64,000 nucleotides of DNA from Bdellovibrio sp. BCCA (GTDB lineage: Bacteria > Bdellovibrionota > Bdellovibrionia > Bdellovibrionales > Bdellovibrionaceae). The notes beneath the pieces were generated by a model. That model was given only the letters and a program-made list of their open reading frames with translations. It had not been told where the DNA came from and made no database searches. The translations under genes were made by a program, and so were the position numbers. The stretch is taken from the NCBI RefSeq assembly GCF_037996825.1, contig NZ_JBBNAC010000001.1, positions 2,356,001 to 2,420,000 of the forward strand. The letters run 5' to 3'. Below are positions 10,078-44,294 of this stretch, piece by piece (positions within the stretch are counted from its first letter, which is position 1; each line of letters begins with the position of its first letter).

Positions 10078-10129
10078 AACAAAATCAAAAAAACTGTAAA
10101 AGCCACTTTACAGTTTTTTTGATTTTGTT
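10078..10129. terminator. Long A/T-rich terminator hairpin
   Basis: An approximately 22-bp near-perfect stem with a central CTGTAAA/TTTACAG core and a 6-base loop. Runs of A on the left arm and T on the right arm suit factor-independent termination on both strands. It ends the transglycosylase transcript. Confidence 0.85.
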
Positions 10130-10316: not shown

Positions 10317-11042
10317 ATGCCTATGAAGGACAATGGTTCGATTTCACCTTTACTGTACGATTTGGACTATACGATTATCACGGGTAAAGATCTTCACGAT
10401 CGACAACCCACGGAGCTGCACAACAAAGCTTACGCTTATTGGAAAGCCTTCTGGAGAAATGTCTTCAAAGAAAATGGCATGCAAGGAGACGTCCTCAGAA
10501 AAGAAGATTTTTTACGGGAAGATTTTATTACCATTCTTTCGCATAAAGATGAAATCGCGGGAATACATCTGTATTGCCAATTTGATTTAGAACTCGAAGC
10601 TTCGCGCGATCATATTTATTTCATGCACAACTATGGACCTCAATTTACGGAACAACTTAGAAAAAACGGCATTCGTCACGTCATGACCATTGAGTATCTT
10701 ACGGTGGATCCGGCCTGGCGAAAATCCAAAGTGGGTGTGAGCTTGGGCCACGTTTTTTGTGCTTTAGGTGCTCAAGTGGCCGCCTACTTGGACGTGGATG
10801 CCGCCGTCAGCGCGTGTCGAATGGACGTCGGAGCCAATGACATGCTCGCCAAATGCGGCGGAGTTTCCTACGGAAAAACAGATCTCTACAACACTCCCGT
10901 GGAATACATGGTTATTCCCCGAGAACTCAATTGCACTCATTTGGATCCCGCTGTTGCCAGTTTAGTCAATCTCTATTGGAATCGCCGGATTGATCTAACC
11001 ACGCGTTTACCAAAACGAAGCCATTTAAAAATCGCAGTTTAA
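10317..11042 (+). CDS. GNAT-fold acyltransferase-like protein
   Basis: The central part (about residues 95-165) reads as a GNAT fold: a beta strand (MTIEYLTVDPAWR) followed by the acyl-CoA pyrophosphate-binding region (KSKVGVSLGHVFC). The length (241) and long N-terminal segment resemble the FeeM/N-acyl-amino-acid-synthase branch more than small acetyltransferases, but this is an inference from layout. The gene starts a co-directional trio with a diiron haem-oxygenase-like protein 14 bases downstream and a methyltransferase after that. The second ATG at 10323 is an alternative start. The substrate is unknown. Confidence 0.65.
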   Translation: MPMKDNGSISPLLYDLDYTIITGKDLHDRQPTELHNKAYAYWKAFWRNVFKENGMQGDVLRKEDFLREDFITILSHKDEIAGIHLYCQFDLELEASRDHIYFMHNYGPQFTEQLRKNGIRHVMTIEYLTVDPAWRKSKVGVSLGHVFCALGAQVAAYLDVDAAVSACRMDVGANDMLAKCGGVSYGKTDLYNTPVEYMVIPRELNCTHLDPAVASLVNLYWNRRIDLTTRLPKRSHLKIAV

Positions 11043-11056
11043 TTATTGGAGAACAC

Positions 11057-11701
11057 ATGAAAAAACAACTGGCACAAAAGTTTGAAGAAAAAATTTTGCA
11101 GACCCAGGTTCTTTTCGACAACTTCCCTTGGGAACAAAAAGAGGCGTATGCAGAACTTCTCGCGCAAACATATTACTATGTTCGCCACACGATGACGTTC
11201 ATCGCAACGAGCGTTGCGCAGTTTAATTTAATAGACCGCCCTCTTCACCGCCAATTGATAAAGCATTTAGCGGAAGAAAACGGTCATGACATTATGCTGA
11301 TTAACGATTTGAAGGCGTTAGGAATGAAAGTAGAAGACTTTCCAGAAAGGCCACAGACGTCAGCACTTTATCAATCACAATATTATTATTTCGATCATGA
11401 AAATCCGTATGCCCATTTTGGATACGCTTACTACTTGGAAGGCGTTTCAGCGCACAGTCTTCAGGCTATTGCGGATACAACGACAAGAATTTACGGTGAA
11501 AGGGCTTCCACCTTTTATCGCTTGCACGGTGAAGAAGATGTCGGCCACTTCGCCAAGGGTTTAAAACTTCTTGAGGGTCTGCCTCCGGAAGCTTTGGAGA
11601 GTATCGAGAAAAATCTCAATGAAACAAGTTTTTTCTACATGGGCATGGTTGAAGCGATCAGCCAAAAATGGGCGAAACAAAAAGGACAAAAAGCAGCTTA
11701 A
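11057..11701 (+). CDS. Iron-containing redox enzyme, haem-oxygenase-like diiron (HDO) family
   Basis: An all-helical 214-residue protein carrying the metal-ligand pattern of the HDO superfamily (relatives: CADD, UndA, SznF, BesC): E73/E74 and H77 in EENGHD, E128 in YYLEG, and H157-x3-D161-x2-H164 in HGEEDVGHF. Such enzymes use a diiron or iron-manganese centre and O2 for N-oxidation, C-C cleavage or decarboxylation, usually in small-molecule biosynthesis. All ligands appear present, so it is likely active. Its neighbours, an acyltransferase and a methyltransferase, support a dedicated metabolite pathway, but the product cannot be named. Confidence 0.82.
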   Translation: MKKQLAQKFEEKILQTQVLFDNFPWEQKEAYAELLAQTYYYVRHTMTFIATSVAQFNLIDRPLHRQLIKHLAEENGHDIMLINDLKALGMKVEDFPERPQTSALYQSQYYYFDHENPYAHFGYAYYLEGVSAHSLQAIADTTTRIYGERASTFYRLHGEEDVGHFAKGLKLLEGLPPEALESIEKNLNETSFFYMGMVEAISQKWAKQKGQKAA

Positions 11702-11710
11702 GAGGTTTTT

Positions 11711-12613
11711 ATGACTACAAACAGACAAGATCTTTTTCTTCAGTTAGTAAAAGATAATATGGAGTCGCCACAGATTTTACAGCGCACGCCAGAGCCTTCC
11801 GGCGTGACGGACGGTGAACAAAACGTGAATCAGTACAATCGCGTACTGAACACGAACATGACTTCAAATTACGCCATAGCCATGGATTTAATGTATCGCT
11901 GTCGTTCTGAAAACTCGAACCATAGCGCTTTGGATTTATGTTCAGGCCCGGGTCTGCTTACGATGGGACTTTCAAATTATCTAGGCTACAAACACGTGCT
12001 CGGAGTCGATCTGTCTCAACCGATGACGTCCATCGCCCAACAAAATGCGAAGCTCGCCGGACTTGAGGGAAAAGTGCGATTTAAAACCGGCGACGTTATT
12101 AATCTCCATGAGTCGGATCATTCGTTTGATCTGGTCAGCTTTACAAACGCCGCCCATCACCTGCCGGATCTAGCGAGCGTGCGTAGAGTCCTCACCGCCA
12201 GCGAGAAGGCTGCGAAACCTGACGGAATCATTGTTCTTACAGATATAGGTCGCCTTAAAACAGCCGAAATCACCGACCGATTTGTGGCTCTTGCCGGAGA
12301 AGAATTCATCAAACTCAACATGCCAGATATGTATGAGGACTTCAGAAACTCAATGTATGCAGGCTGGACTGCGGAGGAACTTGCCACTTGCGTTCCCAAA
12401 AATACGAAGAGAGTTTGGGTGCAGATGGTACCCACAGGGCTGACTTCGCATTTGGCTTTATTAGGTCTGCCCGCCGGAAGAGAAAAGATTTTTTTACGTG
12501 AGAGCTATGATTGGCAGGCGTCAGGTTTACTTAGAAGTGACGAGGCTAAATCGGACTGGCAGGTGTTACGGCACATTGTGAACACAGCCAACTTTAAAAA
12601 GTTGGCTGCGTAA
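11711..12613 (+). CDS. Class I SAM-dependent methyltransferase
   Basis: The Rossmann SAM-binding motif I is ALDLCSGPG near residue 75, followed by an acidic strand end (VLGVDLS) and motif IV-like VSFTNAAHHLPD. The 300-residue size leaves room for a substrate-binding cap. It begins 9 bases after the diiron gene and is the last gene of the trio. The methyl acceptor (O, N or C) cannot be told from sequence. The final codons are part of a perfect 11-bp palindrome that likely ends the transcript. Confidence 0.85.
   Translation: MTTNRQDLFLQLVKDNMESPQILQRTPEPSGVTDGEQNVNQYNRVLNTNMTSNYAIAMDLMYRCRSENSNHSALDLCSGPGLLTMGLSNYLGYKHVLGVDLSQPMTSIAQQNAKLAGLEGKVRFKTGDVINLHESDHSFDLVSFTNAAHHLPDLASVRRVLTASEKAAKPDGIIVLTDIGRLKTAEITDRFVALAGEEFIKLNMPDMYEDFRNSMYAGWTAEELATCVPKNTKRVWVQMVPTGLTSHLALLGLPAGREKIFLRESYDWQASGLLRSDEAKSDWQVLRHIVNTANFKKLAA
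12585..12608. terminator. Perfect palindrome over the methyltransferase 3' end
   Basis: CAGCCAACTTT and its exact complement are separated by two bases and lie inside the last coding codons; the stop follows. Eleven base pairs without mismatch suggest a terminator embedded in the reading frame, although no long T-run follows. It separates this operon from the convergent gene at 12620. Confidence 0.6.
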
Positions 12614-12619
12614 TAAGAA

Positions 12620-13288
12620 TTAATTCCAAAGACCTTTTACAGTCTCGATAAGTACGATGGCTTCAGTTTGTCTGTTCTTTTTCAGAGGACTGATTAACTG
12701 GATTTCCATGTAGCACTCTCTTTTCTCGCTTGAATTGATTTCTTTCAAGAAGTGAGGGCCCAAACCAGGAACGTGACTTTCAGTGATTTCACCATTGAAA
12801 ACTTTGCTGCAAACTTCGAAAGTTTTCATTGTTTCTTGAGGGTCACGTTCATAAAGATGCCACCACTCTAAAGAATAAAGTTCTTCAAGAGTATAAGTGC
12901 AGCATTCAAAGAATCTGAAATTGCGATAAAGCTGTTTATTATCCGCAGAATAAACTTCAACCAAGTTTTCGTCAGTTAAGTAATTAAAAACATCCGAACG
13001 TGGAACCAATCCCAACTTACGGAATGCTTTCCAAACGAATGTAGAGTTGTCTCTGAGCTTGTAACCCTCAGCAACTTGTTCTTCGCAAAGCTCTTTGAAG
13101 AAAGTCAAACTTTGCACGACTTCTTGTTTTTTCTCGACAGAGAGTTTTTCAAAATAAGGAAGTCCTGGAACGTAAGGCTTACGATGAACGCCTTCCGTCG
13201 CAAATAGCATGCAAACTTTTTGAGCTAGCGACTTGAATGACTCATTGAGTTTAAGGGAGGTTTCATCTTGGGTTTTTAGTATTTCCAC
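12620..13288 (-). CDS. PAS-like paralogue A (function unknown)
   Basis: A 222-residue soluble protein in two parts. Residues 15-100 are helical, with AQKVCM, GVHRKPYV and FFKELCEEQ. Residues 105-220 read like a PAS fold: NLVEVYSADNKQLYRNFRFF, then YTLEELYSLEWW where PAS domains have Y-s-x-E-E-L, then alternating strands and a final AIVLIET strand. It is about 60% identical by eye to the adjacent gene at 13441-14118 and more distantly to that at 43066-43719. There is no HTH, kinase or transmembrane part, so it could be a single-domain sensor or adaptor. The PAS assignment is an inference. Confidence 0.65.
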   Translation of the reverse strand: MEILKTQDETSLKLNESFKSLAQKVCMLFATEGVHRKPYVPGLPYFEKLSVEKKQEVVQSLTFFKELCEEQVAEGYKLRDNSTFVWKAFRKLGLVPRSDVFNYLTDENLVEVYSADNKQLYRNFRFFECCTYTLEELYSLEWWHLYERDPQETMKTFEVCSKVFNGEITESHVPGLGPHFLKEINSSEKRECYMEIQLISPLKKNRQTEAIVLIETVKGLWN

Positions 13289-13440
13289 AAATTTCCTCGA
13301 ATTTAAATAAAAACTTGTTGATTAAAACAAGAGATTCAACAATATTCTGATTTTTTTATTTTGTCCATCTTGTGAATGTCACTTAGAAGAATTTCGCCGT
13401 CATTCTTCTTATTATTACCCAAATGCAATCTTCAGGCGAA

Positions 13441-14118
13441 CTAGACTTTTCGATTTTCCACCAGCGTTGCAGATTCGATGACCAGAATCGCATCGACGCG
13501 CTTGTCCCGCTTTAAAGGACTCATGAGTTTTATCTGCTGCATAAAAACTCTTTTCTCTTCACTGCGAATTTCTTTTAAAAGGTGGGGTTCAACTTGCGGG
13601 ACATAACTCTCTGTAATGTCACCTGAGATGACTTTCGAGGCCGCATTAAAAATTTTCGAAGTCATCGCCGGATCTCTTTCGTAGAGATTCCACCACTCCA
13701 AAGAGTAGAGTTCTTCGAGTGTGTATGAACAGCATTCAAAGAATTTGAAGTTACAATAAAGCTGCTTATTGTCCTTTGAGTAAATCTCCACAAGATCTTC
13801 ATCCGACATAAAATTAAAAACATCGGCGCGCGGGACATATCCTAGTTTGCGAAAAGCTCTCCACACGAACGTAAAGTTGTCTTTTAACTTATACCCCTCG
13901 GCGGTTTGTTCTTCACAAAGCTCTTTAAAAAAGACCAAGGTTTTCACGATCTCTTGTTTCTTTTCTAAAGAGAGGGACTGGAAATAAGGAAGATCTTCCA
14001 CATAGGGTCTGCGATGCACGCCTTCGGCGGCTAACATCATACAAACTTTTTGCGCTACGACCTTGAACTCTTCAAGGAGCCGCAGAGATATATTTTCTTG
14101 AAAATTGACTTTAGCCAT
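13441..14118 (-). CDS. PAS-like paralogue B (function unknown)
   Basis: The tandem partner of paralogue A, with 225 residues and nearly the same landmarks in order: AQKVCM, GVHRRPYV, FFKELCEEQ, AEGYKL, FVWRAFRKLG, FECCSYTLEEL, LYERDP and MSPLKRD. The conserved ECC cysteines and Trp-rich LEWW segment mark the probable ligand pocket or interface. A 150-base A/T-rich gap separates it from A, so each gene could have its own promoter. A terminator for trxA lies just upstream of its start, again pointing to independent transcription. Likely a tandem duplication. Confidence 0.65.
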   Translation of the reverse strand: MAKVNFQENISLRLLEEFKVVAQKVCMMLAAEGVHRRPYVEDLPYFQSLSLEKKQEIVKTLVFFKELCEEQTAEGYKLKDNFTFVWRAFRKLGYVPRADVFNFMSDEDLVEIYSKDNKQLYCNFKFFECCSYTLEELYSLEWWNLYERDPAMTSKIFNAASKVISGDITESYVPQVEPHLLKEIRSEEKRVFMQQIKLMSPLKRDKRVDAILVIESATLVENRKV

Positions 14119-43065: not shown

Positions 43066-43719
43066 TTAGTATAAAAGAGGACGGCAATCAATAATGCAGG
43101 CAAAACCCTCAACGGCTTCTTTTTGCATTAAAGGTAAAAGATGAACTCCGTCAACGGTGATAGTCACTCTTTCAAGAGAAGCTTTCTCCGTTAGTAAATG
43201 TTGATTTGGGACCAAAACTCCCTCAGGTCCCGCAGCCTTGGTAAGGACAGCCCCTACTCCTTGAATTAAAAGATTATCGATTTCTTCATCGCGGATATAA
43301 AGATGATTCCAAGGACGACAGTAAAGGTCTTCGATTGTGTAACTGGCGAATTCAAAATAGTTAATTGTTCTGAAAATCTGCGTGTTCTGAGGCGTATAAA
43401 ACTCAACGACACGGCTTTCTTTTTCCACCATTTCAAAAATGGAGGGATGGCATTGATAACCAAAATATTCCAAACCTTTTTGAACCAAGAATGCAGAGTC
43501 TTTGAGACTGTGGTTTTCCTTATAGACGGACCGACAAACCTCAATATAGTTTCGCAGGGTTTCAATGGCAGTTTGTTGGCCTTCTTCTGTCAGCTGTTGA
43601 AAATAGGACAGTCCCGGATGACTATAAGGACGGACCGCCATTCCCTCTTGTTCAATAAACGAACAAAGCTCTTCGCTTAACGCTTTAAACAGTTTCGTTC
43701 TCACCAATTCACCTTGCAA
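43066..43719 (-). CDS. PAS-like paralogue C (diverged copy)
   Basis: A 217-residue relative of the tandem genes at 12620-14118. Shared landmarks in the same order: EGMAVRPY (GVHRKPY in A), LSYFQQLTEEGQQ, an LKDSAFLV segment, VVEFYTPQNTQIFRTINYFEFASYTIEDLY, HLYIRDEE. The ECC cysteines of A and B are replaced by EFA, and the Trp pair is reduced to one. It is convergent with tamA (8 bases) and follows an XRE-type regulator gene on its own strand, but a terminator separates the two. Confidence 0.6.
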   Translation of the reverse strand: MQGELVRTKLFKALSEELCSFIEQEGMAVRPYSHPGLSYFQQLTEEGQQTAIETLRNYIEVCRSVYKENHSLKDSAFLVQKGLEYFGYQCHPSIFEMVEKESRVVEFYTPQNTQIFRTINYFEFASYTIEDLYCRPWNHLYIRDEEIDNLLIQGVGAVLTKAAGPEGVLVPNQHLLTEKASLERVTITVDGVHLLPLMQKEAVEGFACIIDCRPLLY

Positions 43720-43742
43720 AAGAAAATTTCGAATTCATCTGC

Positions 43743-43779
43743 CAAAAAAACAAAACGAGCGCCATAACTGGAGCTCGTT
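43743..43779 (-). terminator. Terminator of the XRE regulator gene
   Basis: AACGAGC-type arms (43754-43760 and 43772-43778 region) enclose a 10-11-base loop; on the minus strand a TTTTGTTTTTTT tract follows. A standard terminator shortly after the regulator stop. Confidence 0.8.
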
Positions 43780-43808
43780 CCAAATTTAACTCTAAAAACT
43801 GGTATAAA

Positions 43809-44087
43809 TTAGCGAGCTTTGCTGCTTGCGAATTTGCGGCGAAGATCTTGAGTCACCTCTTGAACCGTCGCATTGAGCGTCACTTCAAAAAGATCATCAG
43901 CTGATACTTTATAAAGTTCTCCCAACTTCTTAAGAGCGTTGATTGGAGGATGAGAAACTCCTCTTTCCCAGTTAGAAATAAACTGAGGAGTTGAGTATCC
44001 CAATTTGTCAGCCACGTCTCTTTGAGAAAGACCTGCTGCTACACGTTTTTGCTTTAAAAAATCTGCTAACATATTTTTTTGTCTCAT
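43809..44087 (-). CDS. XRE-family helix-turn-helix regulator
   Basis: A 92-residue protein starting MRQKNMLADFL at 44087, with AGGTGG upstream (an in-frame TTG at 44093 is the alternative). The HTH spans about 8-62: LKQKRVAAGLSQRDVADKLGYSTPQFISNWERGVSHPPINALKKL, a canonical Cro/CI-type domain. The 25-residue tail has no effector domain, so it probably responds by dimerisation or through a partner. Targets are unknown. The A/T-rich region upstream may be autoregulated, but no clear palindrome was found. Confidence 0.88.
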   Translation of the reverse strand: MRQKNMLADFLKQKRVAAGLSQRDVADKLGYSTPQFISNWERGVSHPPINALKKLGELYKVSADDLFEVTLNATVQEVTQDLRRKFASSKAR

Positions 44088-44294
44088 GTGCAATCCACCT
44101 AATAGTAATTAGCTTAAACACAACCACGGGAACGTGACAAGTATTTGCTTTGAAGGTTTTTCGTTTTTCACACCTCTAAACAAATACAGTATACATTGTT
44201 TGGGTCTAAATTACTTCCTGTTTTTTTGCAATTTCTATGTTTGAGATACGAGTTATTTCATGTTTTCGCGCAGGAAATATGGAATCATAGGCGC

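Follow-up and report, generated by a model that had tools for sequence, protein, structure and literature searches.

Three co-directional genes lie on the forward strand in the window, that is, the whole stretch of 64,000 nucleotides of Bdellovibrio sp. BCCA that was analysed. The ORF calls place a gene for a GNAT-fold protein at 10317-11042 (241 residues, ending KIAV), a gene for a predicted haem-oxygenase-like diiron oxidase (HDO) at 11057-11701 (214 residues, ending QKAA), and a gene for a SAM-dependent methyltransferase at 11711-12613 (300 residues, ending KKLAA). The intergenic gaps are 14 bases between GNAT and HDO and 9 bases between HDO and the methyltransferase, as the original prediction had stated, and a purine-rich ribosome-binding site precedes each ORF. 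The reading of the three genes as an operon is supported. The same prediction had the operon flanked by terminators, and this was borne out on the upstream side only: a long inverted repeat that resembles a terminator on either strand is found at 10080-10127, where it separates a lytic transglycosylase gene from that of GNAT. The downstream element is a strong hairpin without a T-run (about 12583-12610, forward strand; -16.8 kcal/mol), which overlaps the 3'-terminal codons of the methyltransferase, where its gene meets the convergent one that follows.

This following gene (12620-13288, reverse strand) encodes a PAS-like putative sensor, referred to as c2, and a second, tandem c2 gene is located at 13441-14118 on the same strand; both were found by neighbourhood comparison. 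A solo c2 gene occurs about 30 kb from the operon (43066-43719, reverse strand). It adjoins the gene of an XRE/Cro-C1 helix-turn-helix protein, c5 (43809-44093, reverse strand), which lies 5' of it and was found with the c5 profile. There is no XRE gene beside the window's own cassette, and this pair at 43066-44093 is the nearest c2-c5 pair. Its flanking genes are BamA-like on one side and acyl-ACP-thioesterase-like on the other, and c2-c5 pairs of like spacing recur across other genomes of the genus.

Searches with the GNAT sequence gave no Pfam, NCBIfam or PDB match, and structure comparison alone was informative. The predicted structure (pLDDT 89) adopts the GNAT fold, as had been proposed for the first gene. 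Its structural matches include the AHL synthases RpaI, BjaI, MesI and EsaI. The longest alignment was obtained with RpaI (196 residues, Z 15.0), plain acetyltransferases being equal in Z, and FeeM was aligned over 170 residues with a Z of 14.0. At the level of sequence profiles, none of 32 GNAT members matched a LuxI profile of Pfam or NCBIfam, or the FeeM profile PF21926. Therefore, membership of the LuxI or FeeM family is not claimed; judged from the predicted structure, the GNAT is a putative acyltransferase of an unnamed family, possibly with LuxI/FeeM-like architecture. It should be mentioned that the genus also has a branch of solo GNATs (L213, G002:C1:3355492, G006:C1:3152330, G018:C1:1306481, G020:C3:603919 and G023:C1:643621) with neither HDO nor c2 nearby, and the members that were read mostly do not carry the AA/VA ending described below.

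The HDO matched Pfam PF14518 (E=8e-15), and its structure model (pLDDT 93) shows a haem-oxygenase fold. In structure comparison, the closest solved structures were 3dde, CtCADD and UndA, and the Z values against 3dde, CADD, UndA and HrmI were 20-23. The fold thus matches those of CADD and UndA, with which superposition had been suggested. The residues previously listed for this protein (E73, E74, H77, E128, H157, D161 and H164) are in place. Among 68 family members, E74, H77 and D161 are invariant (68/68) and E128, H157 and H164 occur in 67/68, so that all six positions of the 3His/3carboxylate set are kept in at least 67 of the 68; E73 is conserved in 66. With the Pfam match, the confident fold and these near-invariant ligands, the assignment as an HDO with a complete ligand set is confirmed.

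The nearest solved relative by both sequence and fold is the unstudied HDO Sden_3740 of Shewanella (3dde), which has the HxxEExGH motif in common with the present protein. MboA, an HDO that desaturates a side chain and takes part in mangotoxin production, has the ligands Glu86, His89, Glu143, His172, Asp176 and His181, joined in one chain by Asp90, and Tyr82 is its proposed base (PMC13185094). The cassette HDO resembles MboA and UndA in its fold, in the 3His/3carboxylate ligands and in the E-x2-H spacing. It further resembles MboA in the E-x2-H-D/E motif, where an acidic residue follows the first His. In contrast to MboA, the position of Tyr82 is occupied by H70, four residues N-terminal of E74 and conserved in 64 of the 68 members, and the cassette has no MboB-like redox partner or ATP-grasp ligase. 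A self-sacrificing chemistry of the CADD type was also considered as a candidate for the HDO; Y31 is conserved in 65 of the 68 members.

The methyltransferase matched Pfam PF13649 (E=3e-16), in agreement with its earlier identification. Among 60 relatives searched, it had matches in only four, and outside its own genome these showed 26-31% identity; none of the distant homologues adjoins GNAT or HDO. In the same search, HDO was found in 49 genomes and GNAT in 46, and the two genes form an adjacent pair in 43 of the 60, including all 24 Bdellovibrio sampled. Across these 43 genomes, 51 GNAT and 51 HDO matches are adjacent. Three pairs have changed in orientation or order and still kept their adjacency, and the cassette genes remain linked among lineages in which gene orders have been reshuffled. 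Since GNAT and HDO are adjacent in 43 genomes and the methyltransferase is distant elsewhere, the conserved unit is GNAT plus HDO. The three genes had been expected to co-occur in relatives as a minimal metabolite pathway. A small-molecule role is still likeliest, but the trio is absent from all other genomes searched and was rejected as a conserved unit, the methyltransferase being confined to one genome. Judged from these comparisons, the methyltransferase is a strain-specific addition to the GNAT-HDO unit.

With a tighter HDO alignment, a contig scan gave 18 loci; by record title, 17 belong to Bdellovibrionota, and the remaining one is called just "bacterium". A complete c5-GNAT-HDO-c2 cassette, annotated as hypothetical proteins, is carried by plasmid pBdHM1 of Bdellovibrio sp. 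HM001 (AP029175.1). Outside the phylum, the nearest HDOs found on plasmids were those of Gammaproteobacteria and Deefgea. Four gammaproteobacterial plasmids (L115, L116, L117 and L119) have a recurrent operon of a "thermostable hemolysin" (PF12261), an AMP-binding protein, an HDO, an SDR and a TPR protein. The Deefgea plasmid operon (L118, 4203-7101) encodes a weakly FeeM-like protein, an HDO, a DUF3419 protein and an adenosylmethionine decarboxylase. The thermostable hemolysin was tried as a homologue of the GNAT and dropped, as profile comparison with a small alignment gave no support.

The c2 family is a recurrent neighbour of the cassette. Its members have about 225 residues, and the gene is usually convergent with that of HDO. 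In 144 genomes of the phylum, GNAT was found in 50, c2 in 50 and both in 45 (Fisher p 7e-26, with kinship ignored); c2 is absent near 17 of 62 GNATs. The C-terminal half of c2 was related by profile comparison to PAS domains of the same genome (E=1.3e-4 vs 0.3-0.4 for the GNAT and HDO controls). The alignment is weak (hhalign probability 53%), the best Pfam hit, PAS_9 at 0.0053, is below threshold, and a sequence search of the PDB with c2 gave no match. The family is regarded as weakly PAS-like and as a putative sensor. Its c5 partners have an HTH_3 domain in 15 of 15 members, and the two families are often coupled: 25 co-directional pairs were found, several with a 4-base overlap.

Over 48 cassettes, the pairwise distances within GNAT, HDO and c2 correlate with one another (Mantel r 0.67-0.72), which partly reflects species relationships. 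In the GNAT and HDO trees, the proteins of Bdellovibrio sp. BCCA group with another family of the order (f8, G043; support 0.84 and 0.79, respectively), whereas in the c2 tree its protein groups with Bdellovibrio (0.997), at a locus syntenic in the genus. From these trees, the synthase genes in the region 10317-14118 appear to have been replaced by xenologous ones, and the resident Bdellovibrio-type sensor to have been kept and duplicated. Such a replacement could mean a changed signal, or xenologous enzymes with the same product.

The C-terminal residues of most GNAT and HDO proteins are AA, VA, IA or AV, commonly behind basic residues. In a first count, an AA end was present in 22 of 53 GNATs, 29 of 46 HDOs and 5 of 324 other ORFs. 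In a larger set, 54 of 66 paired GNATs and 49 of 69 HDOs were tailed, compared with 21 of 541 other ORFs and 1 of 63 c2 proteins; the background consists of ORFs from fetched genome stretches rather than a full proteome, and some of them may be non-genes. Among the 53 ORFs of more than 150 residues in the window, AA, AV, VA, IA or LA ends occur only on the three operon proteins. The methyltransferase seems to have been recruited to the pathway in Bdellovibrio sp. BCCA, because it has this tail in common with the other operon enzymes; its tail codons overlap the hairpin, and its tail is weaker evidence when taken alone. The tmRNA tag of the strain is GNDYALAA, that is, it ends in ALAA, and LAA, like its variants LVA and AAV, marks proteins for degradation by ClpXP (PMC9382460). 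By analogy, the tail of the cassette enzymes would be an ssrA-like degron, with clearance by ClpXP.

The codons of the tail alanines are diverse, and local RNA folding energy is alike in tailed and untailed genes. A by-product of codon choice or of RNA structure at the gene end was therefore rejected as the origin of the tail, and selection appears to act at the protein level. Eight of ten tailed genes directly adjoining GNAT or HDO are co-directional with them, and several of the tailed proteins counted as "other" are pathway neighbours. A general habit of desaturases was also rejected as an explanation, since 10 of 14 cassette-adjacent desaturases are tailed vs 7 of 44 other desaturases; three of these seven are in GNAT-bearing loci, more than 1 kb off. 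One fatty-acid desaturase apart from any GNAT or HDO (L227, G007:C1:170279) ends in QKAA. Further pathway members elsewhere in such genomes may be marked by the tail in the same way.

The extra enzymes that carry the tail near GNAT or HDO are mostly fatty-acid desaturases (PF00487); the others are one acyl-CoA dehydrogenase and two FAD oxidases. At five of the six GNAT-c2 loci without HDO, its place is taken by a fatty-acid desaturase with the tail (G051, G055, G097 and G043:C9) or by a tailed FAD oxidase (G163), and the sixth (G088) is on a 3.2 kb contig too short to judge. Elsewhere, tailed desaturases or an acyl-CoA dehydrogenase come in addition. Because these enzymes replace HDO at the loci that do not have it, the simplest reading of the gene content is oxidation of an acyl chain by HDO, the acyl group being used by GNAT. 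Such an oxidation would be within known HDO chemistry, since UndA works on fatty acids and MboA introduces a double bond into a side chain. Taken together, the c2 and c5 partners, the tail and the desaturase swaps favour an acyl-derived product under regulation over a three-gene pathway that stands alone; all three had been missed in the original prediction.

We give about an even chance to a model in which GNAT and HDO form the synthesis part of a compact cassette for an acyl signal in Bdellovibrionota, with the product read by c2 and the XRE protein and the enzymes cleared by ClpXP. The model starts from what was observed: the conservation and adjacency of the cassette, the folds, the diiron ligands, the tails and the enzyme swaps. 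To these we add by inference the substrates, the product, the order of the steps, sensing by c2, the action of c5 as its DNA-binding partner, and proteolysis. The GNAT, whose fold may be of LuxI/FeeM type, would take a fatty acyl group from acyl-ACP or acyl-CoA and attach it to a small amine, most likely an amino acid. Desaturation or another oxidation of the acyl chain would be the task of the predicted diiron HDO; elsewhere, desaturases of fatty acids or flavin oxidases would replace or supplement it, and in Bdellovibrio sp. BCCA the methyltransferase may cap the product. The neighbouring PAS-like c2 would sense the product together with an XRE-type DNA-binding protein. The ssrA-like degron would lead to quick removal of the synthesis enzymes by ClpXP, so that output tracks transcription. 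Several points speak against this signal model: the GNAT has no LuxI or FeeM profile match and is aligned with plain acetyltransferases at equal Z, the PAS assignment of c2 is weak, c2 is absent near 17 of 62 GNATs, the window's own cassette has no adjoining XRE gene, and the co-occurrence statistics ignore kinship. In addition, the synthase and c2 of this strain differ in their phylogenetic grouping, which is odd for a synthase and receptor that co-evolve. The broader proposal, that Bdellovibrionota have an acyl signalling class of their own, with an unclassified GNAT plus HDO or desaturase, a PAS-like/XRE receptor and degron-coupled synthesis, newly recruited enzymes included, seems to us to fall somewhat short of even.

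In neighbourhood comparison, no exporter, immunity or shared scaffold gene is conserved in the cassette, and this bears on several other explanations. Sensing of oxygen or redox state is common among PAS domains. The cassette might be a membrane or envelope-lipid module, in which the GNAT makes an aminolipid (cf. OlsB, the ornithine-lipid acyltransferase), HDO or the desaturases tune the chain, the PAS-like and XRE proteins sense oxygen, redox or membrane state instead of the product, and the tails serve quick remodelling. The desaturases and the acyl-CoA dehydrogenase among the partner enzymes would suit such a module, as would the missing exporter. We consider it unlikely, since what is conserved next to the synthase is a soluble regulator of PAS-like/XRE type, c2 has extra solo copies in the manner of LuxR-type receptors, and the GNAT fold aligns longest with AHL synthases, although none of these points is decisive. 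As to the tails, they might be docking or cargo tags to one scaffold, compartment or membrane site rather than degrons: they are common to structurally unrelated enzymes of one pathway, and basic residues often precede them. This is rather improbable, because the endings match ssrA and known degradation variants and no common scaffold gene is present.

Bdellovibrio organisms are predators, and the product might be an antimicrobial or prey-directed acyl compound with self-regulated production, a weapon rather than a signal. Several characterised HDOs yield toxins or antibiotics, as MboA does in mangotoxin, and one cassette is plasmid-borne; the cassette is near-universal in the genus, unlike most weapons, and has no conserved immunity or export gene, so that this explanation is quite doubtful. 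Least probable is a self-contained GNAT-HDO-methyltransferase metabolite pathway without a dedicated regulator, to which the operon structure and the tail of the methyltransferase would be suited: with the trio in no other genome searched and c2 as the conserved partner, it is contradicted as a conserved unit and is possible for the end product of this strain.

If the acyl-signal model is true, acyl-chain oxidation in signal synthesis would join the HDO repertoire, and a degron common to unrelated pathway enzymes would be a sequence mark for finding further members. Being present in all 24 Bdellovibrio sampled, the cassette is a testable candidate for mutual sensing of the predators or for the timing of growth in prey. 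A literature search found no paper on a self-made acyl signal or a LuxI-type synthase in Bdellovibrio, and no description of the GNAT-HDO cassette, the c2/c5 receptor pair or the common tail. The response of Bdellovibrio to Pseudomonas quinolone signals has been studied (PMC8461301). The GNAT-HDO cassette of predatory bacteria is apparently undescribed. The HDO fold and chemistry, GNAT acyl synthases, XRE and PAS proteins and ssrA-type degrons are already known.

An acyl synthase with a regulator is likewise a known kind of system; the putative one described here is set apart by its parts and the common tail. As in LuxI/LuxR quorum sensing, a GNAT-fold putative acyl synthase, which matches AHL synthases and, at equal Z, plain acetyltransferases in structure, lies beside a putative regulator gene, often convergent, and solo receptor-like copies are found elsewhere. 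Unlike that system, the cassette has no LuxI or LuxR sequence match; PAS-like c2 and XRE c5 would stand in place of the receptor, an HDO or desaturase is within the cassette, and the synthases have ssrA-like tails. The FeeM N-acyl amino acid synthases (PF21926) are similar in fold, and on the Deefgea plasmid an HDO accompanies a weakly FeeM-like protein; no GNAT from Bdellovibrio was recognised by the FeeM profile, however, and the cassette adds the regulator and the tail. In the gammaproteobacterial operons of T_hemolysin (PF12261), AMP ligase, HDO and SDR, an HDO of the same branch is beside a small acyltransferase-like gene, but this acyltransferase has no detectable homology to the GNAT, ligase, SDR and TPR genes are extra, and c2 and c5 are missing. 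Finally, the AA, VA and AV endings of the cassette match ssrA, its variants and the strain's own tag; in contrast to ssrA-type degrons, they are gene-encoded and occur, phylum-wide, on unrelated enzymes of one pathway.
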